45,870 nt of DNA from Clostridia bacterium. Its GTDB lineage: Bacteria > Bacillota > Clostridia > Oscillospirales > Acutalibacteraceae. Position 1 is the stretch's first letter, and each line of letters opens with the position of its first letter. The position numbers and the translations under genes were made by a program. Under the pieces are notes generated by a model, which had not been told where the DNA came from, ran no database searches, and saw only the letters and a list, made by a program, of their open reading frames with translations. Positions 3,842-16,383 of the stretch are shown here, piece after piece. The stretch lies in contig JAFQKB010000057.1 of the NCBI GenBank assembly GCA_017397125.1, forward strand, positions 1 to 45,870. The letters are read 5' to 3'.

Positions 3842-3941
3842 ATTTAATCCACCTACTCGCCGGCGAGGCGTATTTCACAGGCCGCAGGCACATTTCACAT
3901 TGAAAAGCAATATATCACCCACCCGTAAGAGTGGATTTAAT
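3842..3941. repeat. Hairpin-ladder repeat, ATTTCAC type
   Basis: A 100-bp element bounded by imperfect inverted repeats ATTTAATCCAC (3842-3852) and GTGGATTTAAT (3931-3941). Inside, the 7-mer ATTTCAC recurs at 3872 and 3892, with the variant ATATCAC at 3912, exactly 20 bases apart. Each pair of 7-mers encloses a 13-base stretch able to form a small hairpin (CGCC..GGCG; GCC-GCA-GGC; ATTG..CAAT). There is no coding potential. The layout matches the larger element at 4044-4211, so both are read as members of one repeat superfamily. Confidence 0.6.
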
Positions 3942-3942
3942 T

Positions 3943-3978
3943 GAAAGCGGCAGATCCCTGTCGGAATCTGCCGCTTTC
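3943..3978. terminator. Strong orphan hairpin, terminator-like
   Basis: Arms GAAAGCGGCAGAT (3943-3955) and ATCTGCCGCTTTC (3966-3978), 13 bp perfect, loop CCCTGTCGGA. Shape and loop resemble the tRNA-Gln terminator at 4213-4249 (loop CTGTCG), but no gene or tRNA precedes it on either strand. It may be a duplicated terminator or the end of an unseen small RNA. Confidence 0.45.
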
Positions 3979-4448: not shown

Positions 4449-5477
4449 TTATAGCTTATCAGCCAGGTCCAGGATCAGTTTTTCGGTCTTTTCCCAGCCA
4501 AGGCAGGGATCGGTGATGGACTGGCCGTAAACATGCTCACCGGCACCCTGTGCACCATCCTCAATATAGCTTTCGATCATCAGGCCCTTGACCAGGCGCT
4601 TGATATCCTGATTATGGTTGCGGCTGTGGATGATCTCCTTGGCGATACGCACCTGCTCCAGCGGCTTTTTGCCGGAGTTGGCGTGGTTGGTGTCCACCAC
4701 CACTGCAGGATTGCTCAGGCCGGTATTCTGATACAGGTCGTTCAGCTTGACCAGATCCTCATAGTGATAGTTGGATACGTTTTTACCGGCAAAATCCGTA
4801 TAACCCCGCAGAATTGCGTGAGCATAGGGATTGCCCTCGCTCTTGACCTCCCAGCCGCGGTAGATAAAGGTGTGACTGTGCTGACCTGCCTTGATGGCGT
4901 TCATCATAATGGACAGATCGCCGCCGGTGGGATTCTTCATGCCCACCGGCACGTCGATGCCACTGGCGGTCAGACGATGCTGCTGATTCTCTACCGAGCG
5001 GGCTCCCACCGCCACGTAGGCCAGCAGATCCGACAGATAGCGGTAATTCTCGGGATACAGCATCTCGTCGGCGCAGGAAAAGCCATAATCCCGCAGTGCG
5101 GACATATGCAGGTCCCGGATAGCCACAATGCCCTTAAACATATCCGGATCCCGGTCCGGGTCCGGTTGATGCAGCATTCCCTTATAGCCATCGCCGGTGG
5201 TGCGGGGCTTGTTGGTGTAGATGCGCGGAATGATGATGATCTTGTCCGCCACCTGATCCTGCACCTTGCGCAGACGGCCGATATAATCCAGCACCGGCTC
5301 ACGATGATCCGCCGAGCAAGGACCGATGATCAGTAAAAATTTATCCGATTCTCCCGAGAATACCGCCTTGATGGCTGCGTCACGCTTCTGCTTGACAATC
5401 TCCATAGCCGCTGTGACGGGATACATCTCCTTAACCTCCATAGGGATCGGGAGCTTTCTATAAAAATTCATACTCAT
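4449..5477 (-). CDS. 3-deoxy-7-phosphoheptulonate (DAHP) synthase, AroG/AroF/AroH-type
   Basis: A 342-residue type I DAHP synthase, condensing phosphoenolpyruvate and erythrose 4-phosphate, the entry step of the shikimate pathway. Landmarks are IGPCSADHREP (about 51-61), KPRTTGDGYKG (90-100), AVGARSVENQQHR, VGMKNPTGGDLSI, DTNHANSGKKP and ESYIEDGAQGAGE. It aligns with the E. coli AroG class rather than the shorter AroF-beta class; which inhibitor it senses cannot be read. The ATG at 5477 overlaps the 3' end of aroA by 20 bases. It is the last gene of the operon, although its reaction is the first. An in-frame TTG at 5495 is less likely as start. Confidence 0.93.
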   Translation of the reverse strand: MSMNFYRKLPIPMEVKEMYPVTAAMEIVKQKRDAAIKAVFSGESDKFLLIIGPCSADHREPVLDYIGRLRKVQDQVADKIIIIPRIYTNKPRTTGDGYKGMLHQPDPDRDPDMFKGIVAIRDLHMSALRDYGFSCADEMLYPENYRYLSDLLAYVAVGARSVENQQHRLTASGIDVPVGMKNPTGGDLSIMMNAIKAGQHSHTFIYRGWEVKSEGNPYAHAILRGYTDFAGKNVSNYHYEDLVKLNDLYQNTGLSNPAVVVDTNHANSGKKPLEQVRIAKEIIHSRNHNQDIKRLVKGLMIESYIEDGAQGAGEHVYGQSITDPCLGWEKTEKLILDLADKL

Positions 5478-6678
5478 TGTCAGATACAACTCCAATCTGT
5501 AAAACTTTCAGTATATCGAAGAAATCCGGATAGCTCTTGGCCACCGCCTGCGCACCGTCGATCGTACCGCCGGTGATGCTGCACAGCAGGCTCAACGCCA
5601 TCACGATGCGATGGTCGTTATGCCCCCACAGATCCTCTACTGGCCGGCGCAGTGTACTAGGCAAAACATCCACCAGATTATCCTCAACACGGACGGTAAT
5701 GCCGAATTTAGCCAGTTCGGCGGCCATAGCGGCACCACGATCGCTCTCTTTGATGCGCAGGCGGGCTGTGCCCGTAAAGCGGGCACAGCCCAGCACCGCC
5801 GCCACAGAAAACAGCACCGGCGCCAGATCCGGACAGTCCGACAGATCGAATTCACGCCTACCGGCAGCCAGAGAAGCAAATATATCCTTATACACTCGAT
5901 CGCCCTGCTGCGTATTCTCGGCAAGGCCATCCACCTGCACATCACCGCCGATGTAGTTGAACGCTTCCAGGAAAGCGGCATTAGAGCAGTCGCCTTCAAC
6001 GGTGTAATCGGCGGACGTATAGGTTTGTCGCCCCGGTATGAGATAGCAATCATTCTGCTTATCGATCTTAATACCGTAATGTCTCATTACCGACAGCGTC
6101 AGTTCTATATAGGAGGCACTTTCCAGCGTGCCAGTGATCTCCAGCGTGCTGTCCCCATCCAGCAGGGGTAAAGTGAACAGCAGGCCGGTGATAAACTGGC
6201 TGGACACATTGCCGGGCACCGAGTAGTGACCCGGCCGCAGACGTCCGCACACCAGTATCGCATCCTCTCTGCGCTCAAAAATAATCCCCTGCCGTGAACA
6301 GATGGACTCATACACACCCAGAGGGCGCTCCAGCAGCCGTCGGCTGCCACGCAGCAGCACCGGCCGATCGCACAAAAGGCACAGAGGCAGCATAAACCGC
6401 AGGGTACTGCCGCTTTCGTTGCATTCCAGTACCGCATTTTCATTCACGGACGCCGGCGTAAAGCTACCCAGCTTTACACAATCTCCATGCTGCTCTACCG
6501 AGCAACCAAGAGATTGCAAGCAACCAAGGGTGGCCAAAACGTCTTGTGACCACGCCAAATTATGAATCGTGCTGTTTCCGGCCAACGCCCCACAGATCAG
6601 CGCCCGATGGGCCATACTCTTGGAGGGCGGGGCGCACACACAGCCGCTCGCTTTGGATGGTGTGATGACAACCTTCAT
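5458..6678 (-). CDS. aroA: 3-phosphoshikimate 1-carboxyvinyltransferase (EPSP synthase)
   Basis: A 406-residue EPSP synthase joining shikimate 3-phosphate and PEP. Seen: APPSKSMAHRALICGAL (K20, S21, R25 region), CNESGSTLRFMLPL (about 86-98), GNVSSQFITGLLF, SDCPDLAPVLF with the catalytic Asp, and IKESDRGAAMA. The length is slightly below the usual 420-430. Its ATG overlaps the aroQ stop by four bases (ATGA). The motif at residues 89-94, GSGSTLRF-like with Ser-Gly-Ser, fits the family, but glyphosate class was not resolved. Confidence 0.95.
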   Translation of the reverse strand: MKVVITPSKASGCVCAPPSKSMAHRALICGALAGNSTIHNLAWSQDVLATLGCLQSLGCSVEQHGDCVKLGSFTPASVNENAVLECNESGSTLRFMLPLCLLCDRPVLLRGSRRLLERPLGVYESICSRQGIIFERREDAILVCGRLRPGHYSVPGNVSSQFITGLLFTLPLLDGDSTLEITGTLESASYIELTLSVMRHYGIKIDKQNDCYLIPGRQTYTSADYTVEGDCSNAAFLEAFNYIGGDVQVDGLAENTQQGDRVYKDIFASLAAGRREFDLSDCPDLAPVLFSVAAVLGCARFTGTARLRIKESDRGAAMAAELAKFGITVRVEDNLVDVLPSTLRRPVEDLWGHNDHRIVMALSLLCSITGGTIDGAQAVAKSYPDFFDILKVLQIGVVSDNEYEFL

Positions 6679-7115
6679 CGGACATCCTCCATCCGTTGGA
6701 TCAGATGGTCCATAGCCTCCATGTATCCGGCAAAGCCGTGGCCGGATATGGTCATTTCGCAGTATTCCCGCACATAGCTCACCTGACGGAAGGCCTCCCG
6801 CCGGGACACATCCGTGATATGCACCTCCACCGCCGGGATACCCACAGCCTTAAGCGCATCCAAAAGCGCCACGCTGGTGTGGGTATAGGCCGCCGGATTG
6901 ATCACGATACCGTCCACCGCCCCATAGGCCTGCTGGATCTTATCCACCAGGTCGCCCTCGTGATTGGACTGGTATAGTTCTACCTCCACGCCGCGGGCGG
7001 CAGCATGAGCCTCTATATCGGCGCATAGCTGGCCGTAGCTTGTCTTTCCGTATACGTCCGGCTCGCGAATGCCCAGCATATTCAGATTGGGGCCGTTAAT
7101 CACCAGAATTTTCAT
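6675..7115 (-). CDS. aroQ: 3-dehydroquinate dehydratase, type II
   Basis: A 146-residue type II dehydroquinase of the small dodecameric family, converting 3-dehydroquinate to 3-dehydroshikimate. NGPNLNMLGIREPDVYG holds the Asn/Arg/Tyr active-site loop; SNHEGDLVDKI, INPAAYTHTSVALLDAL and EVHITDVSRREAFR follow, the last carrying the catalytic His. The start at 7115 lies inside the 3' end of the aroE/aroK fusion gene (20-base overlap) with GAGAGG upstream; a longer frame from 7184 adds 23 residues unlike the family. Confidence 0.95.
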   Translation of the reverse strand: MKILVINGPNLNMLGIREPDVYGKTSYGQLCADIEAHAAARGVEVELYQSNHEGDLVDKIQQAYGAVDGIVINPAAYTHTSVALLDALKAVGIPAVEVHITDVSRREAFRQVSYVREYCEMTISGHGFAGYMEAMDHLIQRMEDVR

Positions 7116-8349
7116 GGTTAAGATCCTCTCTAATCCAACGTACAATTTCGTCAACCGTGCCGTCCGCCTCCACGTGACGGTCACAACAGCCGGTATAGAT
7201 TTCGTATCGCTCCCGATACCGACGCTCCAGATCCGCCCGATTGGAGGATAGGGGCCGGTCGTCGGTAGTCACCAGTTTATCTAAAGAACGATCCAAAAAG
7301 TAGATGCGGCCATTCTCTTTTAATAACTGCACGTTTTCGGGCCTTAGCACCGCACCGCCGCCGGTGGCAATCACCGTGCGCTGGCAAGTTGCCAGGCCCC
7401 GAATCGCCGCCGTCTCCAGATCTCTGAATCCGCGCTCCCCCACCGACGCAAAAATCTCCGGTATGGGGCGCTTTTCCTCCGCCACGATATAGGCGTCTGT
7501 ATCCGCAAAATCATAGTCCAGGGCCTGTGCCAGACGCTTGCCAACCGTGGTTTTGCCGCAGCCCGGCATACCCACCAGCACCACGTTCTGCTTTTCGCGC
7601 AGTAGCTCCTCATATACGGTGTTTATCTTATCCTGGTCGATGGCTTCCCCGGTGAACAAGCCGGCCGCATACACCGCCTGTGCAACCAGCATATACAAGC
7701 CGCCCCGGGCCGGAATGCCCCGTGCCAGCGCATCGCAAACCAATTTGGTGCGCAGAGGATTATACACCACATCAAACACTCCCTCCAGAGAGGGAAAGTC
7801 CGCAACGTCCACGGCACTTACACCTATATGGGGATACATACCGCAGGGCGTGGTGTTGATGATAAAAGCTGCATCGCCATGCCGTTGCTTGGCCTGGGCA
7901 TAGGTGATACAACCCTCCCGGGCCGTGCGGGACACGCGAACAGCCAGTCCGCAGCCCAACGACTGCGCCGCGGCGAAGGCCGTCTTAGAAGTACCGCCGC
8001 TGCCGAGGATCAAAACCTTCTTGCCCGTCAGGTCAGCGCCGCAATGACGGATCAGCGCACACAGTCCGGGAAGGTCCGTGTTATAGCCGTACAGCACCCC
8101 ATCCCGATTGACAACGGTGTTCACCGCGCCGATGCAGCGGGCCGTTTCGTCCACGCGGTCGAGGTGCGGAATCACCGTTTCCTTATACGGTATGGTGACG
8201 TTGATGGCACTGAAATCGCGACGGGATAGAAAATCCGCGATTTCACTTGGGGCTATTTCTTTCAATTCGTATTCATAATCGTACAACCGATTGTGTATTT
8301 CCTTGGAAAAGCTGTGAGAAAGTCGCTCTCCGATCAGTCCGTACCTCAT
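7096..8349 (-). CDS. aroE/aroK: Bifunctional shikimate dehydrogenase / shikimate kinase (AroE-AroK fusion)
   Basis: One 417-residue chain with two pathway enzymes. Residues 1 to about 250 are shikimate dehydrogenase: SHSFSKEIHN (11-20), NVTIPYKET with catalytic K56, GAVNTVV, NTDLPG with D92, and the NADP loop GSGGTSKTA (117-124). Residues about 253-417 are shikimate kinase: Walker A GMPGCGKTT (260-268), DTDAYI (284-289), GERGFRD, ATGGGAVLRPENV, and the lid DDRPLS. Linker residues 240-255 are helical-looking, and there is no stop or internal SD between the domains, so the fusion seems genuine. The ATG at 8349 overlaps the aroC stop (ATGA). It catalyses two consecutive steps from 3-dehydroshikimate to shikimate 3-phosphate. 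Confidence 0.93.
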   Translation of the reverse strand: MRYGLIGERLSHSFSKEIHNRLYDYEYELKEIAPSEIADFLSRRDFSAINVTIPYKETVIPHLDRVDETARCIGAVNTVVNRDGVLYGYNTDLPGLCALIRHCGADLTGKKVLILGSGGTSKTAFAAAQSLGCGLAVRVSRTAREGCITYAQAKQRHGDAAFIINTTPCGMYPHIGVSAVDVADFPSLEGVFDVVYNPLRTKLVCDALARGIPARGGLYMLVAQAVYAAGLFTGEAIDQDKINTVYEELLREKQNVVLVGMPGCGKTTVGKRLAQALDYDFADTDAYIVAEEKRPIPEIFASVGERGFRDLETAAIRGLATCQRTVIATGGGAVLRPENVQLLKENGRIYFLDRSLDKLVTTDDRPLSSNRADLERRYRERYEIYTGCCDRHVEADGTVDEIVRWIREDLNHENSGD

Positions 8350-9440
8350 ACCGCACCCAACCAATCCGTGCCATAACGACCAGCCAGCAGATCGCAAAGA
8401 GCCAACGCTACCACACAGTCCGCCACTACGGCGGCCCGATGGACGATGCACGGGTCATGGCGTCCCTTAGCTTCCAACTGGGCATTGGTGCCGTCGATCA
8501 GATCCACCGAGTCCTGACAGAGGCCGATGGTGGGAGTGGGCTTCACCGCGCAACGCACCACCACCGGCATACTGTTGGTGATGCCACCGTTGATGCCGCC
8601 GTTGTGGTTGGTGACGGTGACGATCCGGCCATCCACCACGCGAAACGCATCGTTGGCGGCAGAGCCGGTCGTATCCGCCAGGGCAAAGCCGTCGCCGAAT
8701 TCCACGCCCTTGATGGCCGGAATGGAAAACAATGCGTGGGAGAGAACGCCCTCCACGGTGTCAAACCAGGGCTCGCCCACTCCGACGGGCAAGCCGGTGA
8801 CCACCGTCTCCAGCACGCCGCCGACACTGTCCTTGTTTTCTCTAGCATTCAAAATCCGCTCGGTCATAGCCGCCTCGGCGGACGGGTCCAAAACCGGAAA
8901 TCCACCGGCAGCAAGCCTATCCATATCCACACACAGATTCTCAAAAGGTCGGTCCTCTACTCCGCCCAGGCGAGAGACGTGGGTCGCCACACGGATACCT
9001 TTAGCGGCCAGCGCCGGAATCACAAGGGCGCCGGCGGCCACCAGCGCCGCCGTAACGCGGCCGCTGAAATGGCCACCGCCCCGGTAATCCTCATAACCAT
9101 GGTATTTGCAGGCAGCCGTATAGTCCGCATGTCCGGGGCGGACCAGACGGCGTTGGGCCGTATAATCGGCAGAGCGGGTGTCCTCGTTGGGGATGCGAAT
9201 GCACACCGGGGTGCCGGTGGTCTTACCTTCAAACACGCCACTCTCGATGACAAAGCGGTCCGCCTCCTGCCGGGCAGTCGAAATCCTACCCTGAGGACGG
9301 CGCCGGGTCAGCATAACCGCAATGAAATCCTCATCCACCGGCAGACCGGGAGCCAAGCCGTCCACGACAGCACCGACAGAGGCGCCGTGGCTCTCGCCAA
9401 ACAGCGTTACCGATACGTTATGTCCGAATGTGTTTTTCAT
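8346..9440 (-). CDS. aroC: Chorismate synthase
   Basis: A 364-residue FMN-dependent chorismate synthase, making chorismate from EPSP. Signature stretches: GESHGASVGAVVDGLAPG, RRRPQGRISTARQEAD, HADYTAACKYHGYEDYRGGGHFSGR with its conserved Arg/His, and NHNGGINGGITNSMPV, followed by the C-terminal RHDPC. It overlaps its neighbours by four bases on both sides: aroB upstream and aroE/aroK downstream. Confidence 0.96.
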   Translation of the reverse strand: MKNTFGHNVSVTLFGESHGASVGAVVDGLAPGLPVDEDFIAVMLTRRRPQGRISTARQEADRFVIESGVFEGKTTGTPVCIRIPNEDTRSADYTAQRRLVRPGHADYTAACKYHGYEDYRGGGHFSGRVTAALVAAGALVIPALAAKGIRVATHVSRLGGVEDRPFENLCVDMDRLAAGGFPVLDPSAEAAMTERILNARENKDSVGGVLETVVTGLPVGVGEPWFDTVEGVLSHALFSIPAIKGVEFGDGFALADTTGSAANDAFRVVDGRIVTVTNHNGGINGGITNSMPVVVRCAVKPTPTIGLCQDSVDLIDGTNAQLEAKGRHDPCIVHRAAVVADCVVALALCDLLAGRYGTDWLGAV

Positions 9441-10456
9441 GCTCCCAGCACCTCCCGAATCAGCTTTTCATATTCCATAAACGATATGTTTTTCAATTCA
9501 TACGTACCGATTTGCGGCACGTACACCACCGTAATGGTGTCGCCGGCCATCTTTTTATCATGCCGACAGGCATCCAAAACAGCCTCTGCGTCTCCCGCAA
9601 TTTCGGTGGGCAACCCTAGCCGCAGCAACAACGGAAGCAGCCGCTCCCGCACCGCCGGAGCGCACATAGGCACCATTCCCAGCGCCACACACTCACCGTG
9701 ATAATAGGTATCCATATCATTAACACACTCTATGGCGTGGGCCAGCGTGTGACCGAAATTGAGAATCTTACGCAGTCCTGCTTCGTGCTCGTCCTCTTCC
9801 ACCACCTGTTTCTTAATCAGCAATGCACGGTGGATGATCTCATCCAGCACCGAAGGCGATGACAGATCGGCAGTCTCAAACAATGTGAACAACTCGCTAT
9901 CGCTGGTCAGAGCCATTTTGACCGCCTCGGCCAGGCCGTTGGATACCTGTCGAGCAGGCAGTGTAGACAACGTATCCGGGTCGATCAGCACCGCCTTAGG
10001 CGGATAGAAAGCGCCCACCAGGTTTTTGAGCCCCATAAAGTCAATGGCGGTTTTTCCGCCAATGGAAGAATCCACCTGGGACAGAACGGTGGTGGGAATG
10101 TTATAATAATCAATACCGCGCATATAGGTGGCGGCCGCAAAGCCGGCCAGATCACCCACCACGCCACCGCCTACAGCCACCACGCAGTCCGTACGTGAGA
10201 ACCGATTCTCCACCAGCTTCTCCAGCAGCGCAGTGTAGGTGTGTATCTGCTTGGACTGCTCACCCTGGGGAATGGTGCACACCACCGGGTCGGCGCACTG
10301 TGACGCCACCGTTTGGGCATACACGGCCGGTACACCGCTGTCCGTGACGATCAGCACCTTACGCCGCAGATGGAGATATTGCCCGGAGCGGTTTAGAGCC
10401 CCACGCTCCAATCGGATGTCATAGGTGCCTTGTGAAGTTTTGACACAGAGAGTCAT
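9437..10456 (-). CDS. aroB: 3-dehydroquinate synthase
   Basis: A 339-residue NAD- and metal-dependent enzyme cyclising DAHP to 3-dehydroquinate. Seen: IPQGEQSKQ, VAVGGGVVGDLAGFAA, the hallmark PTTVLSQVDSSIGGKTAID, NGLAEAVKMAL (metal Glu) and ILNFGHTLAHAIE (metal His). The ATG at 10456 is preferred over an in-frame GTG at 10465 because GAGGA lies about nine bases upstream. It starts 12 bases after pheA and overlaps aroC by four. Confidence 0.95.
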   Translation of the reverse strand: MTLCVKTSQGTYDIRLERGALNRSGQYLHLRRKVLIVTDSGVPAVYAQTVASQCADPVVCTIPQGEQSKQIHTYTALLEKLVENRFSRTDCVVAVGGGVVGDLAGFAAATYMRGIDYYNIPTTVLSQVDSSIGGKTAIDFMGLKNLVGAFYPPKAVLIDPDTLSTLPARQVSNGLAEAVKMALTSDSELFTLFETADLSSPSVLDEIIHRALLIKKQVVEEDEHEAGLRKILNFGHTLAHAIECVNDMDTYYHGECVALGMVPMCAPAVRERLLPLLLRLGLPTEIAGDAEAVLDACRHDKKMAGDTITVVYVPQIGTYELKNISFMEYEKLIREVLGA

Positions 10457-10468
10457 AGTCAGCACTCC

Positions 10469-11557
10469 TCAGATATGTATCTCTTTCTCATAGCTGCCCA
10501 GCACCTTTACATGGCTGCAGCAGGTTTTCAGCTTGTTGAGCATCCGAGCGCCGTCCTCGCTGCTGAGATCGCCCTCGCCCTCGGCATAGAAATAATAATC
10601 CCAGATCAGCTCTTTGGTGGGACGACTCTTAAGAGCCCGAAGGTTGAAGCCATGCTCGCCGATCACCGAGATCGCCTTACCCAGCGAGCCGGCGGTGTTA
10701 TTCACCGTGAACAGCATGATGAAATGGTTGTCCTTGGGGCTGGGCGCCCGTCGTGCCCGGGAAAACACCGCAAAGCGGGTGGTGTTTTGGCTGCTCTCGT
10801 TGATGTGACCCTCCAGCTTGTTCAGGCCGAACTTGGCAGCAGCCTCCAGACTGCCGATGGCGGCCGTGTCCGGTCGTCCCATCTCCGCCACCTGGCGCAC
10901 CGCCACAGCGGTATTCACCGCCTCCACGGTGGCAAACCCATGGCGTTCAATAAAATCAGCGCACTGGCCCAGGGCCTGAGGATGGCTGATAACGGTTTTG
11001 ATATCCTCCAGAGCGGCACCCTTCACCGCCAGAAGATTCTGTACGATCTCCGCCTCATACACACCGGTCACGTACAGATTGCCGAAAAAGGCCAGATCCA
11101 GCACCTTGCTCACGTCGCCGTTATAGCTGTTCTCTACCGGAAGCAGCGCACAGTCGCAGGACCCATCCTCAACCGCCTTGTAGGCGGCGGCAAAATCGCC
11201 GTAGGGAACCGCCGTCGCGTCCGGGAATATCCGTTCGGCTGCTATGTTGGCAAAGGCGCCCTCCACACCGCTATACGCGACCCGCATGCCGTCCATCAGG
11301 CGGCGCTGCATATCCTTAGAGACCTCCATGGTGGAGCGCAAAAAACGCACGTAATGGGAACGGTATTCCTCGTTTTTGACAAGGGCGGAGTTTTTACGGA
11401 TCAGGTGCTCTTCGCGAGCCGGATCCTCCACCGGCACGCCGTGTTCCTTTTTATAAGCGGCAACGAGGCGCACCGCATCCATACGCTTTTCAAATAATTC
11501 TGCCATATCCCGGTCTACGTCGTTGATGAGCAGCCGGGCTTTTTCCAAATCGGTCAT
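10469..11557 (-). CDS. pheA: Bifunctional chorismate mutase / prephenate dehydratase (P-protein)
   Basis: A 362-residue enzyme committing chorismate to phenylalanine. Residues 1-85 are an AroQ-type chorismate mutase helix bundle (LINDVDRDMAELFEKRM). Residues 92-265 are prephenate dehydratase (AYSGVEGAFA, PVENSYNGDV, and the catalytic TRF at 260-262). Residues about 277-355 form an ACT regulatory domain with GSLGKAISVIGEHGFNL and KSRP in place of the common ESRP, pointing to feedback by Phe. It starts six bases after the aminotransferase stop, AAGGGG serving as SD. No prephenate dehydrogenase (tyrA) is in the operon. Confidence 0.96.
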   Translation of the reverse strand: MTDLEKARLLINDVDRDMAELFEKRMDAVRLVAAYKKEHGVPVEDPAREEHLIRKNSALVKNEEYRSHYVRFLRSTMEVSKDMQRRLMDGMRVAYSGVEGAFANIAAERIFPDATAVPYGDFAAAYKAVEDGSCDCALLPVENSYNGDVSKVLDLAFFGNLYVTGVYEAEIVQNLLAVKGAALEDIKTVISHPQALGQCADFIERHGFATVEAVNTAVAVRQVAEMGRPDTAAIGSLEAAAKFGLNKLEGHINESSQNTTRFAVFSRARRAPSPKDNHFIMLFTVNNTAGSLGKAISVIGEHGFNLRALKSRPTKELIWDYYFYAEGEGDLSSEDGARMLNKLKTCCSHVKVLGSYEKEIHI

Positions 11558-11563
11558 GATCCA

Positions 11564-12754
11564 TTACCCCTTGTTGTATTCCTCATACAGCGCCCGGAAG
11601 GCCGGCAGCGAGCGGCGAATCTGGTCGTTACTGACGCAATAGGCGATACGCACATATCCCGGCACGCCAAAATCGTCGCTGGGTACCAGCAGCAGCTCGT
11701 ACTTCTTAGCACGCTCGCAGAAGGCGGCCGCATCCGACTCCAACGCCCGAACGAAAAGATAAAAAGCACCGTCGGGTCGCACCGCCTCGTAACCCATCTC
11801 GGTCAGAGAGGAATACAACAGCGTGCGATTGGCGTCGTAAGCGGACAGATCCGGGGCCGTGCCGTCACAGGCGCCCACCGTCAGCTGCAGCAGACTGGGG
11901 GCACACACAAAGCCCAGACTGCGGCCGGCACCGCAGATGGCGGCGTACACGTCCCCGGCGCCCTCCATGCGGGGCGATACCAAAATATAGCCGATGCGCT
12001 CGCCGGGCAGAGACAGGGATTTGCTGTAGGAATAACACACCAGCGTATGATCGTAGTAGCAGGGAATGTACGGCACGTCCACGCCGCCGTACACCAGCTC
12101 CCGATAGGGCTCGTCGGCAATGATCGCAATCGGGCGACCGTACTGTGCGGATTTTTCGGTCAGCACATCCGCCAGGCGTCGGATACAGATCTCATCCAGC
12201 ACCACACCGGAGGGATTGTTGGGGGAATTGACGATGACGGCCCGGGTCTTCTCATTGATTGCCTCTGCCAACGCGCCAAAATCAATATCAAAGGTCCCCA
12301 TTCGTCCGGGCACGATCACCGGCACAGCGCCGGCATTGCGTACAAACACCTGGTACTCAGGGAAAAAGGGTGCCAGCAGGATCACCTCGTCCTCCGGACA
12401 GCAGATCGCCCGCAGAGAAATGGTCAGCGAAGCGGCAGCGCCGCAGGTCATATAGATGAGCGCCGGATTTACCTCTATACCAAAACGCTCGGAGACGTGG
12501 CCGGCGATGGTCTGACGCACGCCCATATCACCGGGCGCAGAAGTATAACCGTGCAGCAAAACGGGGTCGGTGTCAGCTATAAGCTTTTGCATAGTCTCCC
12601 CAACCACCGCCGGAGCGGGGATGCTGGGGTTGCCCAGGCTGAAATCAAATACGTTCTCTGCACCGATCTGGGTGCGGCGCACCTTGGCGTATTCAAATAT
12701 TTCACGGATAACGGAGCTCTTTTTGCCCAGAGCCAGCATTTCTTTAGATACCAT
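11564..12754 (-). CDS. PLP-dependent aminotransferase (class I/II), probably aromatic or aspartate type
   Basis: A 396-residue fold-type I aminotransferase. Seen: HGYTSAPGDMGVRQ, NSPNNPSG (177-184), ADEPYRELVY with D214, PLP lysine K245 in CYSYSKSLSLPGERIGYI, and R253. As first enzyme gene of the operon and just upstream of pheA, it most likely transaminates phenylpyruvate to phenylalanine, perhaps also prephenate or 4-hydroxyphenylpyruvate; sequence alone does not settle the substrate. The ATG at 12754 has AGGAG nine bases upstream; the ATG at 12763 touches the SD. The attenuator terminator lies only about 20 bases before the start. Confidence 0.88.
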   Translation of the reverse strand: MVSKEMLALGKKSSVIREIFEYAKVRRTQIGAENVFDFSLGNPSIPAPAVVGETMQKLIADTDPVLLHGYTSAPGDMGVRQTIAGHVSERFGIEVNPALIYMTCGAAASLTISLRAICCPEDEVILLAPFFPEYQVFVRNAGAVPVIVPGRMGTFDIDFGALAEAINEKTRAVIVNSPNNPSGVVLDEICIRRLADVLTEKSAQYGRPIAIIADEPYRELVYGGVDVPYIPCYYDHTLVCYSYSKSLSLPGERIGYILVSPRMEGAGDVYAAICGAGRSLGFVCAPSLLQLTVGACDGTAPDLSAYDANRTLLYSSLTEMGYEAVRPDGAFYLFVRALESDAAAFCERAKKYELLLVPSDDFGVPGYVRIAYCVSNDQIRRSLPAFRALYEEYNKG

Positions 12755-12773: not shown

Positions 12774-12825
12774 AAAAAAATCCGCACACCCTATACGCCG
12801 CACAAACGGCATAAATGGCTGCGGA
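12774..12825 (-). terminator. Attenuator terminator of the aromatic operon leader
   Basis: Minus strand: TCCGCA (12825-12820) pairs with TGCGGA (12786-12781), with an inner stem TATGCCG/CGGCGTA, followed immediately by seven U (12780-12774). It lies between the leader peptide and the aminotransferase gene. The first three bases of its 5' arm are also needed by the competing pairing at 12823-12833. Confidence 0.85.
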
Positions 12826-12890
12826 CTGTCCGTTGATTTGGTCACACAGAGGTGATCTCTCACATCTGTGCAGCCGAGCACGGACAGCCC
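12823..12890 (-). promoter_or_regulatory. Putative antiterminator structure of the aromatic leader
   Basis: On the minus strand GGGCTGTCCGT (12890-12880, inside the leader-peptide codons) can pair with ACGGACAGTCC (12833-12823), 11 pairs with one G-U. The loop between them holds a second perfect hairpin (12845-12870: CACAGA..TCTGTG with an inner GTGA-GAGA-TCAC). The distal arm takes TCC away from the terminator stem, so the two structures exclude each other. A ribosome waiting at the Phe/Tyr codons would leave the proximal arm free; one at the stop codon would cover it. Confidence 0.7.
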
Positions 12891-12928
12891 TTTGTAAAGC
12901 AATAATAAAAACCACTCTTAAAGAACAT
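12860..12928 (-). CDS. Phe/Tyr-rich leader peptide of the aromatic operon
   Basis: A 22-codon ORF ending in TGA. It begins M-F-F-K-S-G-F-Y-Y-C-F: Phe at positions 2, 3, 7 and 11 and Tyr at 8 and 9, so six of the first eleven codons are for the pathway's products. AAAGGAG (12944-12938) stands nine bases before the ATG, and a consensus promoter lies upstream. The second half (T-K-G-C-P-C-S-A-A-Q-M) is coded by the bases that form the proximal arm of the antiterminator. This is the design of pheA/trp-type attenuator leader peptides; the peptide itself probably has no other role. It overlaps no other plausible gene. Confidence 0.85.
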   Translation of the reverse strand: MFFKSGFYYCFTKGCPCSAAQM

Positions 12929-12965
12929 TGTTCCGCACTCCTTTCTAACGAACTTGATGCAAACA

Positions 12966-12994
12966 ATTTTATTACAATGACAAAAAAATGTCAA
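12966..12994 (-). promoter_or_regulatory. Promoter of the aromatic operon
   Basis: Minus strand TTGACA (12994-12989), 17-base spacer, TAAAAT (12971-12966). The expected start lies near 12959, giving an RNA leader of about 200 bases before the aminotransferase gene. Confidence 0.82.
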
Positions 12995-13081: not shown

Positions 13082-14176
13082 TTAAGACACAAACAAGCCG
13101 CCGCACCAGACGGTGTCCCCATTGGGAAGGATCTCGACAGTGTGCTCAGCCGCCTCGGCATCATCCAGAATAACAAAATTGGTGTAAATGCCACCGCGGA
13201 TCACGTACGGGGGCAGAGCCTTTTCCACGCCGTCCACCCGTACGGTCATTTTCAGATCGTCCGAATACGGTGTGCAGATGGGCAGGATCAGCCGCTTACC
13301 GGTGGCTTTCAGTACCAGGGGCTCCTCCCCCTCGTTTTGCCAGGAGCAGCACTCCTCCGTGAACACCTTAAAGCTGCCCATAGACAGCGGGGTTGTGTTT
13401 TCGCAGTGGAGCCACTTAGCATCCTTATACACATAAGGACGGAACGGCTCGGGAATCGGGAACTCTTCATTCTTGAGGGTATCCATAGCCGCATATACAT
13501 CGTTGAGATAGCTGGTGATAAACTCGCCTACAATGGCATGACCCTTGTCGGTTGGATGTACCCAGTCGGCGCAGATATCTCTCCACAGATACTGACCGTC
13601 GGGATTCTTCTCGGTTTTGACCTCCGGCCACACCGCATCAAGATAACTGATCATCGGCAGATTGTAGTGATTGCAGATCGGAATCTGATCCTCCTGAGCA
13701 TTGATCGGGCCCTCGCTCATCACAAACAGAACCAGCACAGCCGGCTTCGACTCGGCAGTAAGAATCTTATGGATCAAGCTGGCATACGCCTCTGCCTGGA
13801 AGTCCATGACCACGTCGTTAACGCCGAACTCAACAAGGATAAAATCCGGATTGTGGGACAGAAGCATCTCGTCCACGCGGTGAACACCCAGCAGACTGGA
13901 GGTGCCGCTGTAGCCGGCGTTAATGTAGGAAACGGTGGATCCCGGGAATGACTGTTCCCACCAGGTACGCAGAATACCGGCGTAGCTCTTCTCCTTAGTG
14001 GAAGCACAGGCGCCGTGGGTCACACTACCGCCAATAACACCAATGGTGATGGGTTTGCCGCTGTTAGCCTTGTCCATCACACGGGCGATACGGGCGGCAT
14101 TGCCGGCGGAAACCAGGGCGGTATCCAGCATATCCTGTCGAATACCCAAAGAAATGGCATTTTCGGTTAGTTTCAT
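13082..14176 (-). CDS. SGNH/GDSL-family hydrolase, no signal peptide
   Basis: A 364-residue putative esterase. The SGNH blocks are clear: GGSVTHG with nucleophile Ser51, the Gly block near NAGYSGTSS (86-94), GVND (118-121) with the oxyanion Asn, and DWVHPTDKGH with D204 and H207. The last 130 residues look like a beta-rich accessory domain. No signal peptide or membrane helix is present, so it should act in the cytosol, perhaps deacetylating imported sugars or oligosaccharides; the substrate is inference. AAGGAG lies eight bases before the ATG. It is close in sequence, blocks and C-terminus to the neighbouring lipoprotein (14326-16383), so the two arose by duplication. Confidence 0.85.
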   Translation of the reverse strand: MKLTENAISLGIRQDMLDTALVSAGNAARIARVMDKANSGKPITIGVIGGSVTHGACASTKEKSYAGILRTWWEQSFPGSTVSYINAGYSGTSSLLGVHRVDEMLLSHNPDFILVEFGVNDVVMDFQAEAYASLIHKILTAESKPAVLVLFVMSEGPINAQEDQIPICNHYNLPMISYLDAVWPEVKTEKNPDGQYLWRDICADWVHPTDKGHAIVGEFITSYLNDVYAAMDTLKNEEFPIPEPFRPYVYKDAKWLHCENTTPLSMGSFKVFTEECCSWQNEGEEPLVLKATGKRLILPICTPYSDDLKMTVRVDGVEKALPPYVIRGGIYTNFVILDDAEAAEHTVEILPNGDTVWCGGLFVS

Positions 14177-14325: not shown

Positions 14326-16383
14326 TTACGATACAAACAGGCCGCCCAGATACAGGGTACCGCTGTTGCAGGTGATCTCAACGGTGTGCTCACCAACAGT
14401 ATCCTCGTCAAAGACCAGGAAGTTGGTGTAGCGACCGCCGCCAAACAGCTTGCTTTCAATATCCAGCTTGACAACCTTGCCACCGTCGATGCGAACGGAA
14501 ACGTCCAGATTCTCCGCCTGGGTGGAGGGCACCGGAATGATCAACCGCTTGCCGGTGAACTTAAACACGATGGGCTTGTTGCCGCTGCTCTTCCAAGAAG
14601 CGTTGTGCTGGTTATTCACCGAGAAGCTGCCCAGAGACTGAGGCGTGATATTCGTATTGTTGTACCATTTGGCATTCTTAAAGTTGTCCGGGCGCTCCGG
14701 TGCAGGCACAGCGGGCACATTGGTAGAGATTTTAGACAGATTCTCATAAGTCTTCTGCAGATAACTGATGATCAGATCACCGATGATGGCATGGCCCTTA
14801 TCGGTGGGATGCACGTAGTCGGCGCCAATATCGCTCCACAGATACTGACCGTAGATATTGTTCTTGGTGTTGACCTCCGGCCACACAGCATCACGGTAGC
14901 TGATCATAGGAAGGTCATAATACTGACCGATGGGCTGCTGCCAACTCTGTTGGTTGCCGCCAGAATCACCCATAACGAACAGAAGCAGAACCGCAGGCTG
15001 AGACTTGTGCTCCATAACGCGGCGCAGCAGGCTGGCGTACGCCTCATACTGGATATTATTCGTCGTATCGTTGACACCGAACTCGATGATCACAAAATCG
15101 GGATCGTAGCTCAGTACATCCTCCTGCACACGGTGGACGCCATACAGGCTGGAGGTACCGCCGATACCGGCGTTAACGAACTTTACGTTGGACTGGGGGA
15201 AGGTCTTTTTCAGCCAGGTGTGGGTCAGACCAGCATAGCTTTTGGTCTTGTAATCGGAAGCGTACGCACCCTCGGTAACACTGCCGCCGATGGACACGTA
15301 GGTGATATCCTCGCCGTTCTTAGCTTTGTTCATCACCTTGGCCAGACGAGCCTGGTTGCCCAGGTTCACCAACGCCTTATCCAGCATATCCATACGAATA
15401 CCCAGAGCAGCAGCGTTATCGGTGACTGCCATATAGTTCGTGATACGCTCCGGATTTTGCACACAGTGCTCACACTTAGATTCGTTCAGTTTGGTCGCAA
15501 CCTTTTTGGTGCTGTTGATGCTACTTTTAACAGCGGTAGCCGCAAAGGTTACAAACTCGTCCGGCGTGTAGCAGGCCATTTCATACACACCGACCTCTTC
15601 TCTATCAAAGACATTGCCGGCGGGCAGCGCCTCAAACTTATCCAGGAAGTCAGACAGGTCGGCCTCGGGAAGATTCAGAGACTGGTAGATATAAAAAGAG
15701 AAAACCGCGAACATGAATTCATAGTTTTTGCGTACACAGTTCAGCAGAGCACCAGTAACCATGCTGTCTTTGTCACAATACAGGTGCATGCAATACTCCG
15801 CACCGGACTCAGCATCCTGGATAAAATACAAGTAAACCGTTTCGTTGGCAGAGGTCTTGGTAGAACCGCTGCTGGTCACCTTATAATCGGTGATGCTGAC
15901 GCACTCATTAAAAAAGGACATGAAAAAATCCTTATCCACCAAGGCCTTACCGGCAGGCTTGGTGGTATTGATTATGTTGGTACGGGATACCGTACTGATG
16001 TTGCTGGGACGAGTGGTCTTGGTGGTGGAACTGGTCCCACTGGTTCGGTTGCTCGTGGTGAGCTGCGTCTTGGACGACGTGGTCCGGTTCGTGGTAGTAT
16101 TACCGGTGGTGTTGTTACCGGTCGAACCGGTAGAACCATTGGTAGAGCCATTCGTTACAGAACTGGTATCACCGGTGGTGTCAGACCCATCCGTGCTGTC
16201 TGTGGTTCCGTCGGCGGTGCTGTCGGTGGTGGAGTCTCCGGTATCAGAGACGCCCGGGTCGGACAGATCCGGGGTGCTTTCATCACCGACCGGCTTTTTG
16301 CCGCAGGCGGTGGCCAGCAGCATAGACGCCACCATCAGCAACGTAAGCAGCAGGGTGAGAATTCGTTTGCAGTTTGTACGCAT
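14326..16383 (-). CDS. Surface lipoprotein with SGNH-hydrolase domain
   Basis: A 685-residue protein. Residues 1-27 are a lipoprotein signal (LLATAC, lipid Cys27). Residues about 35-145 are almost only Thr, Ser, Gly, Asp and Asn, a wall-spanning linker. Residues about 147-315 form a domain I do not recognise, with a CEHC pair (305-308). Residues about 320-685 repeat the architecture of the neighbouring cytosolic esterase: GGSVTEG with Ser369, NAGIGGTSS, FGVNDT, GADYVHPTDKGH, and a beta-rich end closing with the same GLFVS. It probably removes ester groups from extracellular glycans; the substrate is inferred only from the family. AAAGGAG precedes the ATG. Confidence 0.85.
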   Translation of the reverse strand: MRTNCKRILTLLLTLLMVASMLLATACGKKPVGDESTPDLSDPGVSDTGDSTTDSTADGTTDSTDGSDTTGDTSSVTNGSTNGSTGSTGNNTTGNTTTNRTTSSKTQLTTSNRTSGTSSTTKTTRPSNISTVSRTNIINTTKPAGKALVDKDFFMSFFNECVSITDYKVTSSGSTKTSANETVYLYFIQDAESGAEYCMHLYCDKDSMVTGALLNCVRKNYEFMFAVFSFYIYQSLNLPEADLSDFLDKFEALPAGNVFDREEVGVYEMACYTPDEFVTFAATAVKSSINSTKKVATKLNESKCEHCVQNPERITNYMAVTDNAAALGIRMDMLDKALVNLGNQARLAKVMNKAKNGEDITYVSIGGSVTEGAYASDYKTKSYAGLTHTWLKKTFPQSNVKFVNAGIGGTSSLYGVHRVQEDVLSYDPDFVIIEFGVNDTTNNIQYEAYASLLRRVMEHKSQPAVLLLFVMGDSGGNQQSWQQPIGQYYDLPMISYRDAVWPEVNTKNNIYGQYLWSDIGADYVHPTDKGHAIIGDLIISYLQKTYENLSKISTNVPAVPAPERPDNFKNAKWYNNTNITPQSLGSFSVNNQHNASWKSSGNKPIVFKFTGKRLIIPVPSTQAENLDVSVRIDGGKVVKLDIESKLFGGGRYTNFLVFDEDTVGEHTVEITCNSGTLYLGGLFVS

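Follow-up and report, generated by a model that had tools for sequence, protein, structure and literature searches.

A predicted Phe/Tyr leader-peptide attenuator family associated with shikimate and phenylalanine operons of uncultured Clostridia

How might an uncultured member of the Clostridia control a whole shikimate-to-phenylalanine operon from one site? The locus that raises this question lies in a 45,870-nt stretch of DNA, hereafter the window, which is contig C40 of a 1.8 Mb genome in 89 contigs that is 85.9% complete. The original prediction placed a ribosome-mediated attenuator with a Phe/Tyr leader peptide just ahead of the operon. We analysed the window, the upstream regions of related operons, and the predicted folding of the leader RNA with a ribosome placed on it. 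The window leader is very probably a ribosome-mediated transcription attenuator that would sense charged tRNA-Phe and tRNA-Tyr.

The operon and the anatomy of its leader

The operon lies on the minus strand of the window and contains the following genes, in order of transcription.

11564..12754, minus strand: PLP-dependent aminotransferase, operon gene 1 (NCBIfam NF005305, above cut-off)
10469..11557, minus strand: pheA, chorismate mutase / prephenate dehydratase (both families, below curated cut-offs)
9437..10465, minus strand: aroB, 3-dehydroquinate synthase (TIGR01357, above cut-off)
8346..9440, minus strand: aroC, chorismate synthase (TIGR00033, above cut-off)
7096..8355, minus strand: aroE-aroK fusion, shikimate dehydrogenase and shikimate kinase (two consecutive domain matches, below cut-offs)
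6675..7112, minus strand: aroQ, type II 3-dehydroquinate dehydratase (TIGR01088, above cut-off)
5458..6678, minus strand: aroA, EPSP synthase (TIGR01356, 253.8 bits against a cut-off of 287)
4449..5477, minus strand: aroF, DAHP synthase (TIGR00034, above cut-off)

Judged by family matches, these eight genes form the complete set from DAHP synthase to phenylalanine that had been proposed, with aroE and aroK fused; pheA, aroE-aroK and aroA are assigned below the curated cut-offs. A Gut-1 RNA (Rfam RF01706, 71.6 bits) is present at 3867-3943 on the minus strand, downstream of aroF and a tRNA-Gln. On the other side of the operon, upstream of the leader, there are two adjacent and visibly similar minus-strand ORFs at 13082-14176 and 14326-16383. 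The former weakly matches a lysophospholipase/thioesterase I model, and the latter has a Thr/Ser-rich stretch behind its start.

The leader occupies the region immediately upstream of the aminotransferase gene and has the following elements.

12966..12994, minus strand: sigma-70-type promoter TTGACA-17-TAAAAT, with 11 of 12 consensus bases
12938..12944, minus strand: Shine-Dalgarno sequence AAAGGAG of the leader ORF, from sequence
12932..12940, minus strand: region 1, GAGTGCGGA, from the minimum free energy fold; overlaps the Shine-Dalgarno sequence
12860..12928, minus strand: leader ORF of 22 codons, MFFKSGFYYCFTKGCPCSAAQM followed by a stop, from sequence and frame-specific Phe/Tyr enrichment
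12880..12890, minus strand: region 2, GGGCTGTCCGT, antiterminator 5' strand within the leader ORF (duplex z = -3.95; covariation)
12823..12833, minus strand: region 3, ACGGACAGTCC, antiterminator 3' strand (duplex test; covariation)
12780..12826, minus strand: intrinsic terminator hairpin, formed by the 3' part of region 3 and region 4 (fold; lower-stem covariation)
12774..12780, minus strand: terminator U-run of seven T, from sequence

The promoter, Shine-Dalgarno sequence, 22-codon Phe/Tyr ORF, exclusive pairings and seven-U terminator named in the original prediction are all present in the sequence. The sensor codons of the ORF are Phe at positions 2, 3, 7 and 11 and Tyr at positions 8 and 9. 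This clustering of cognate codons behind a Shine-Dalgarno sequence is characteristic of the attenuator class, and translation of the ORF is predicted. The terminator arms are GTCCGCAGCC (12826-12817) and GGGTGTGCGGA (12791-12781), and the bases GTCC are common to region 3 and the terminator 5' arm. Folding thus predicts a mutually exclusive antiterminator and terminator ahead of the first structural gene, again as in the attenuator class. A third pairing, predicted in the window by folding alone, joins region 1 to TCCGTGCTC (12884-12876); this 1:2 structure would form in the untranslated leader and leave the terminator intact. A simple terminator scan has no entry for the hairpin at 12780-12826, because the scan has a loop limit of 8 and the stem contains internal loops.

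We compared the window leader with shuffled sequences. The RNA from 12960 to 12774 folds with a z-score of -6.28, and 0/200 shuffles are equally stable. The z-score listed above for region 2 belongs to the pairing of the ORF's 3' portion, which contains region 2, with the downstream stretch that contains region 3; none of 300 shuffles of the ORF portion gives an equally stable duplex. Shuffling this T-rich region of the window produces an SD-led ORF with no fewer Phe and Tyr codons in 73 of 1000 cases, so the window ORF taken alone is weak evidence. A chance ORF survives this window-only test and was ruled out by conservation. Searches with Rfam at the gathering score, including the T-box model RF00230 and the leader families, give no match at the window leader, and a T-box or known riboswitch identity was rejected for that reason. 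With the threshold relaxed to E up to 5 there are four matches, none of them to a leader family; the best lax-threshold overlaps with the leader reach 16-17 bits and belong to unrelated families.

Conservation and distribution of the leader

Computation establishes the anatomy of the leader, its conservation, covariation in two stems, frame-specific Phe/Tyr codons, spacing, and a link to aromatic genes at every fetched locus. An orthologue of the aminotransferase, with 54-87% identity, occurs in 12 genomes besides G000 (60 genomes, the window's own included). The Phe/Tyr leader lies directly upstream of it in 8 of these 12 and is absent from that position in G012, G027, G048 and G050; for G050, a leader was found later by covariance model, before pheA and on a different contig (L185). 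We also examined 80 named loci, kept from 567 confirmed relatives, and the leader precedes the operon in 16 of them, one of which (L032) is the same contig as G005. The relatives' loci come from uncultured Clostridia, Oscillospiraceae and similar organisms, several from goat, deer or buffalo gut. Genomes and named loci together provide 24 distinct leaders. A run of at least three Phe/Tyr codons is present in the ORF of all 16 named loci with the leader, although they were chosen for it. Among 50 aminotransferase loci outside such operons, five have an SD-led ORF with at least five Phe/Tyr codons in the 350 nt upstream, and one has a run of three or more.

We built a covariance model, R1, from 18 leaders of clear anatomy and held out six. 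Three of the held-out leaders are matched at E < 0.05 (L012, L069 and L052) and L051 is matched at E 1.1, while L033 and L041 are missed both by R1 and by the later model R2. R1 matches (E up to 0.1) occur in 22/300 genomes of the family and 37/394 of the order, in draws that overlap. We fetched 48 model-found loci, of which 39 are new, 8 belong to R1's own set and 1 had been held out. This count leaves out about seven weaker order matches, including G401, G487, G469, G411, G501 and G605; the last consists of two overlapping matches on opposite strands and is probably spurious. At each of the 48, a Phe/Tyr ORF coincides with the match and the adjacent gene is an aromatic one, namely the aminotransferase gene (24), pheA (13) or aroF (11). 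A second aromatic gene falls within the ~1.5 kb examined at 43/48 loci, and L174 is the only locus whose ORF lacks a Shine-Dalgarno sequence from our word list. The aromatic gene match starts 168 nt (L157) and 294 nt (L149) past the attenuator at two loci, versus 15-52 nt at the other 46. The second model, R2, was built from 58 matches. It finds 7/391 genomes in the class at E up to 0.01, with four new leaders adjoining pheA or aroF, and 2/398 in the phylum, both already known; on the 50 aminotransferase loci outside such operons it gives nothing below E 4.9. The covariance model makes it possible to annotate an element that is left unmatched by Rfam 15 in the window.

The expectation that relatives with the same operon would carry the leader is borne out by the 24 distinct leaders and the 48 model-found loci, although no leader precedes the operon in 13 relatives whose gene order agrees over the length of their contigs. 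A Phe/Tyr ORF of this kind is absent from these 13 and from L086, which has another gene order, and R1 gives no match below E 2 on any of the 14. A T-box-like word was sought in the 900 nt upstream of the 13 leaderless operons, and the single instance is in L034, ~660 nt upstream. A divergent TetR-family gene lies upstream in five of the 13 (L071, L077, L099, L100 and L103; PF00440 in 5/5), and four of these five also carry GTTAACAnTGTTAAC, a palindrome, close to the promoter. The gene arrangement suggests that the TetR-flanked operons are likely to be under protein control in place of the attenuator. A TetR gene at some loci and a leader at others, beside the same operon, would represent a natural swap of control systems that is traceable on a tree.

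Both stems of the switch covary, in agreement with the compensatory changes expected across orthologous leaders. In a 58-leader alignment, A4, the antiterminator and upper terminator pairs have a covariation score of 0.264 versus 0.166 (0/500 shuffles) and 60 cells changed on both sides versus 20.5 in shuffles (0/500). Two-sided changes affect 10/14 pairs, a count equalled by 10/500 shuffles. Sliding the partner strand by 1-3 columns lowers the share of paired cells from 87% to at most 40% and the covariation score to at most 0.125. The lower terminator stem is 95.6% paired and has a covariation score of 0.289 versus 0.197 (0/500 shuffles). Alignment A4 was fitted to the R1 structure, which favours pairing, and plain MAFFT alignments are therefore the fairer test; with 24 leaders the covariation score is equalled by 3/500 shuffles for each stem, and with 18 leaders by 0/500.

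Across the 58 aligned leaders, window included, Phe and Tyr account for 66% of the codons that start 6-32 nt before region 2 in frame 0, and for 16% and 19% in the other frames. Enrichment in the coding frame only argues against a mere U-rich tract, and together with the 48 model-found loci it confirms the predicted conservation of Phe/Tyr codons. The last Phe/Tyr codon has its first base 5-14 nt ahead of region 2, and in 58/58 leaders translation would end at a stop codon 5-26 nt past region 2, ahead of region 3. As read from these sequences, all 58 have the layout of the attenuator class, with sensor codons just ahead of region 2 and the stop ahead of region 3. Both Phe and Tyr are present in 63 of 64 leaders, and there is no Trp among the 1402 residues of the 64; L196, outside this count, has one Trp near its end.

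The presence of Tyr codons was unexpected at a locus where only the Phe branch is encoded. This oddity holds for the window but not for the family, since 21 of the 24 leader-bearing operons for which enough sequence is available carry tyrA between aroA and aroF (in L032 the tyrA call is based on prephenate dehydrogenase family matches below cut-offs). The Tyr codons fit because the usual operon carries tyrA, and the leader appears to read both of the end products that such an operon normally supplies. Phe and Tyr would accordingly be sensed jointly where pheA and tyrA share an operon. The three operons that lack tyrA at this position are those of the window, L043 and L048. In the window, tyrA is cleanly absent at 5458-5495, where aroA and aroF overlap, and PF02153 finds nothing elsewhere in the genome; the absence from the genome may reflect its incompleteness. 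L043 and L048 have tyrA elsewhere in the genome, and no leader is found upstream of these tyrA matches, either by eye (500 nt) or by R2. The window leader has two Tyr codons versus three or four in its genus, and L043 and L048 keep four; a reduction in Tyr codons after loss of tyrA is only suggestive (n = 1).

A second codon-level feature precedes the sensor run. Of 63 leaders examined, 28 have an Arg codon directly ahead of the Phe/Tyr run, and it is CGA in 28/28 (for example L043:9808-10000, L008 and L035); the window leader does not carry this element. The longer word CGATTTTAY is found in 27 of these 28. CGA is a rare codon nearby, with 10/269 Arg codons (3.7%) in the aminotransferase genes next to 15 of these leaders. 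Across 24 aminotransferase sequences, the most frequent codon accounts for only 21-46% at nine conserved Arg positions, and shared ancestry alone therefore fails to explain the fixed CGA. Pairing of the CGATTTTA word with other parts of the leader was sought in 27 leaders and none was found (mean z ~+0.5 on both sides). One possible but doubtful reading is that CGA is selected as a codon or nucleotide word, not as an amino acid, and serves as a built-in timing element that slows the ribosome at a set place and keeps it in step with RNA polymerase. A fixed CGA ahead of the sensor run poses a precise and testable question about attenuator timing.

Ribosome position, proposed mechanism and rival explanations

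We next consider how a ribosome on the leader would affect the terminator. In the window, the pairing probability of the lower terminator stem is 0.97 in the untranslated leader, 0.63 with a ribosome at the start of the Phe/Tyr run and 0.97 with a ribosome at the stop codon. Shuffling region 2 under a stalled ribosome restores it to 0.95. The predicted weakening of the terminator when the 5' part of the leader is occupied therefore holds for the window, but it is not general; in equilibrium folding with a ribosome at the first run codon, only 11 of 24 leaders, window included, lose more than 0.2 of lower-terminator probability, and none of the 24 does so once region 2 has been shuffled. If the ribosome is moved to the last run codon, with 15 nt hidden downstream, the drop is kept in 2/24, the window (0.94 to 0.72) and L041, which implies stalling early in the run or co-transcriptional folding. 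Taken singly, 8 of 24 leaders are not significant at 0.05 in the duplex test. Region 2 of the window ends 17 nt ahead of the stop codon, and a ribosome at the stop would consequently block the 2:3 hairpin mainly by occupying its loop.

These features are consistent with the following mechanism, in which we infer where transcription starts, that ribosomes stall on uncharged tRNA, that read-through follows, and the relative weight of the two tRNAs. Transcription would start just below 12966. In a leader that is not translated, region 1 would pair with region 2 and the terminator would form. When both tRNAs are charged, the ribosome would pass the Phe/Tyr codons and reach the stop between regions 2 and 3. 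There it would sit on the 2:3 hairpin or in its loop, leaving region 3 to pair with region 4, and transcription would end at the U-run ahead of the aminotransferase gene. A shortage of Phe- or Tyr-tRNA would make the ribosome stall early in the run, at codons 7-11, with region 2 free. Free region 2 would then capture region 3 and break the lower terminator stem, allowing RNA polymerase to enter all eight genes.

Several other explanations of the leader were weighed against this mechanism. The same downstream RNA switch could be driven by a nascent-chain arrest peptide with an R-F-Y-Y motif, which would sense free aromatic amino acids or another metabolite instead of uncharged tRNA. The Arg ahead of the aromatic pair in 28/63 leaders is what such a peptide might show, but R-F-Y-Y is absent from the window and from five of its six leader-bearing congeners (the exception is G001), and the peptide beyond the aromatic run drifts. 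The recurring C-terminal residues (TDCLCT and similar) coincide with the antiterminator strand, which changes along with region 3. The Arg is moreover fixed as a codon and not merely as a residue, which a constraint on the peptide alone leaves unexplained. We regard an arrest peptide as improbable. Translational coupling, or sequestration of the aminotransferase ribosome-binding site with no termination of transcription, would suit a first gene that begins only 20 nt past the end of the U-run. Against it, the hairpin ends in a U-run, the aminotransferase Shine-Dalgarno sequence AGGAG (12768-12764) lies outside the terminator stem, the lower stem covaries, and the terminator is kept while the first gene varies between aminotransferase, pheA and aroF; this explanation is very improbable.

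The ORF might also be a chance product of a T-rich leader or a small gene of ordinary kind, with the hairpins as a plain terminator of the upstream gene; the 73 window shuffles and the five of 50 aminotransferase loci outside such operons described above lend this some support. Set against this are the longer runs, which are confined to one of those 50 loci and present in all 16 named leader-bearing loci, even allowing for their selection. Frame-specific enrichment, fixed spacing and two-stem covariation also hold in the model-found loci, and a promoter-like site separates the upstream gene from the hairpin. Such an origin has hardly any probability. T-boxes abound in these genomes (59/60 have a match at E up to 0.001, 53 over cut-off), and a T-box or other known riboswitch might be anticipated on that ground, but the window leader has no Rfam match at the gathering score and its best lax matches are those to unrelated families; we consider this identity extremely unlikely. 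Attenuation by a translated Phe/Tyr leader remains the explanation that we favour.

Comparison with known attenuators

The leader attenuators of the enteric pheA, trp and his operons have a short ORF with runs of end-product codons, mutually exclusive antiterminator and terminator hairpins, and a stop codon ahead of the second strand of the antiterminator. The likeness to pheA/trp-type attenuators that was originally proposed is upheld by the leader ORF, the predicted exclusive hairpins and the spacing described here, including a stop ahead of the antiterminator 3' strand.

Leader peptides have been reported in Firmicutes before. A His leader was described in bacilli by Naville and Gautheret 2010 (PMC2965389), who knew of no earlier one outside Proteobacteria and Actinobacteria, and His attenuators, together with the mechanism of his attenuation, are described for the B. 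cereus group, Eubacteriales and Erysipelotrichales in the parts of PMC9413887 consulted. In Staphylococcus aureus, a Leu leader is backed by genetic evidence (PMC5794164). As described in the consulted parts of these papers, the Firmicute His and Leu attenuators follow the same leader-peptide principle, in Clostridia too in the case of His, with other amino acids and operons. The view that Firmicutes mostly use T-boxes agrees with the abundance of T-boxes in the genomes studied here, but these published leader peptides qualify it.

Aromatic upstream ORFs have also been proposed. Stav et al. 2019 (PMC6429828) studied five genomes, Clostridium novyi among them, and their text proposes a regulatory role for two candidate uORFs that contain Phe and Tyr and lie next to shikimate genes. 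The comparison with the present family is by text only, in passages that give no organism, gene or antiterminator, and the candidates may be identical with it. At L202 (Clostridium hydrogenum) we observed a different aromatic uORF before a DAHP synthase gene, with two YYYF runs and a Trp. R2 gives no match on it, and it is possibly of the kind shown in Fig. 6b of PMC6429828. Brewer et al. 2021 (PMC8632094) describe the uORFC-13-1 motif, a predicted Phe uORF with a terminator before aroF, from 24 representatives in Acholeplasma and environmental sequences only. By its description in the portion consulted, this motif has Phe codons and a further paired substructure, with neither Tyr nor an antiterminator named. 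No aromatic uORF was seen in the part of PMC11109978 consulted. Firmicute leader peptides and aromatic uORFs having already been reported in these sources, as far as their consulted parts describe them, the present leader is less surprising than first stated. Among the matches listed in our searches, which mostly lay outside subscription journals, no paper describes an attenuator before an aminotransferase-pheA-aro operon in Clostridia.

The attenuator family is real, well supported and of a known type, and it is new as far as these searches reach, with the nearest candidates compared by description. Its members very likely allow a set of uncultured Clostridia to control the whole shikimate pathway by a leader peptide despite their many T-boxes. 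The window leader resembles the enteric attenuators in its codon-run ORF and its exclusive hairpins. Unlike them, it mixes Phe and Tyr codons, matches no Rfam family, and would govern the whole shikimate trunk together with the Phe branch and, in the usual operon, the Tyr branch as well.
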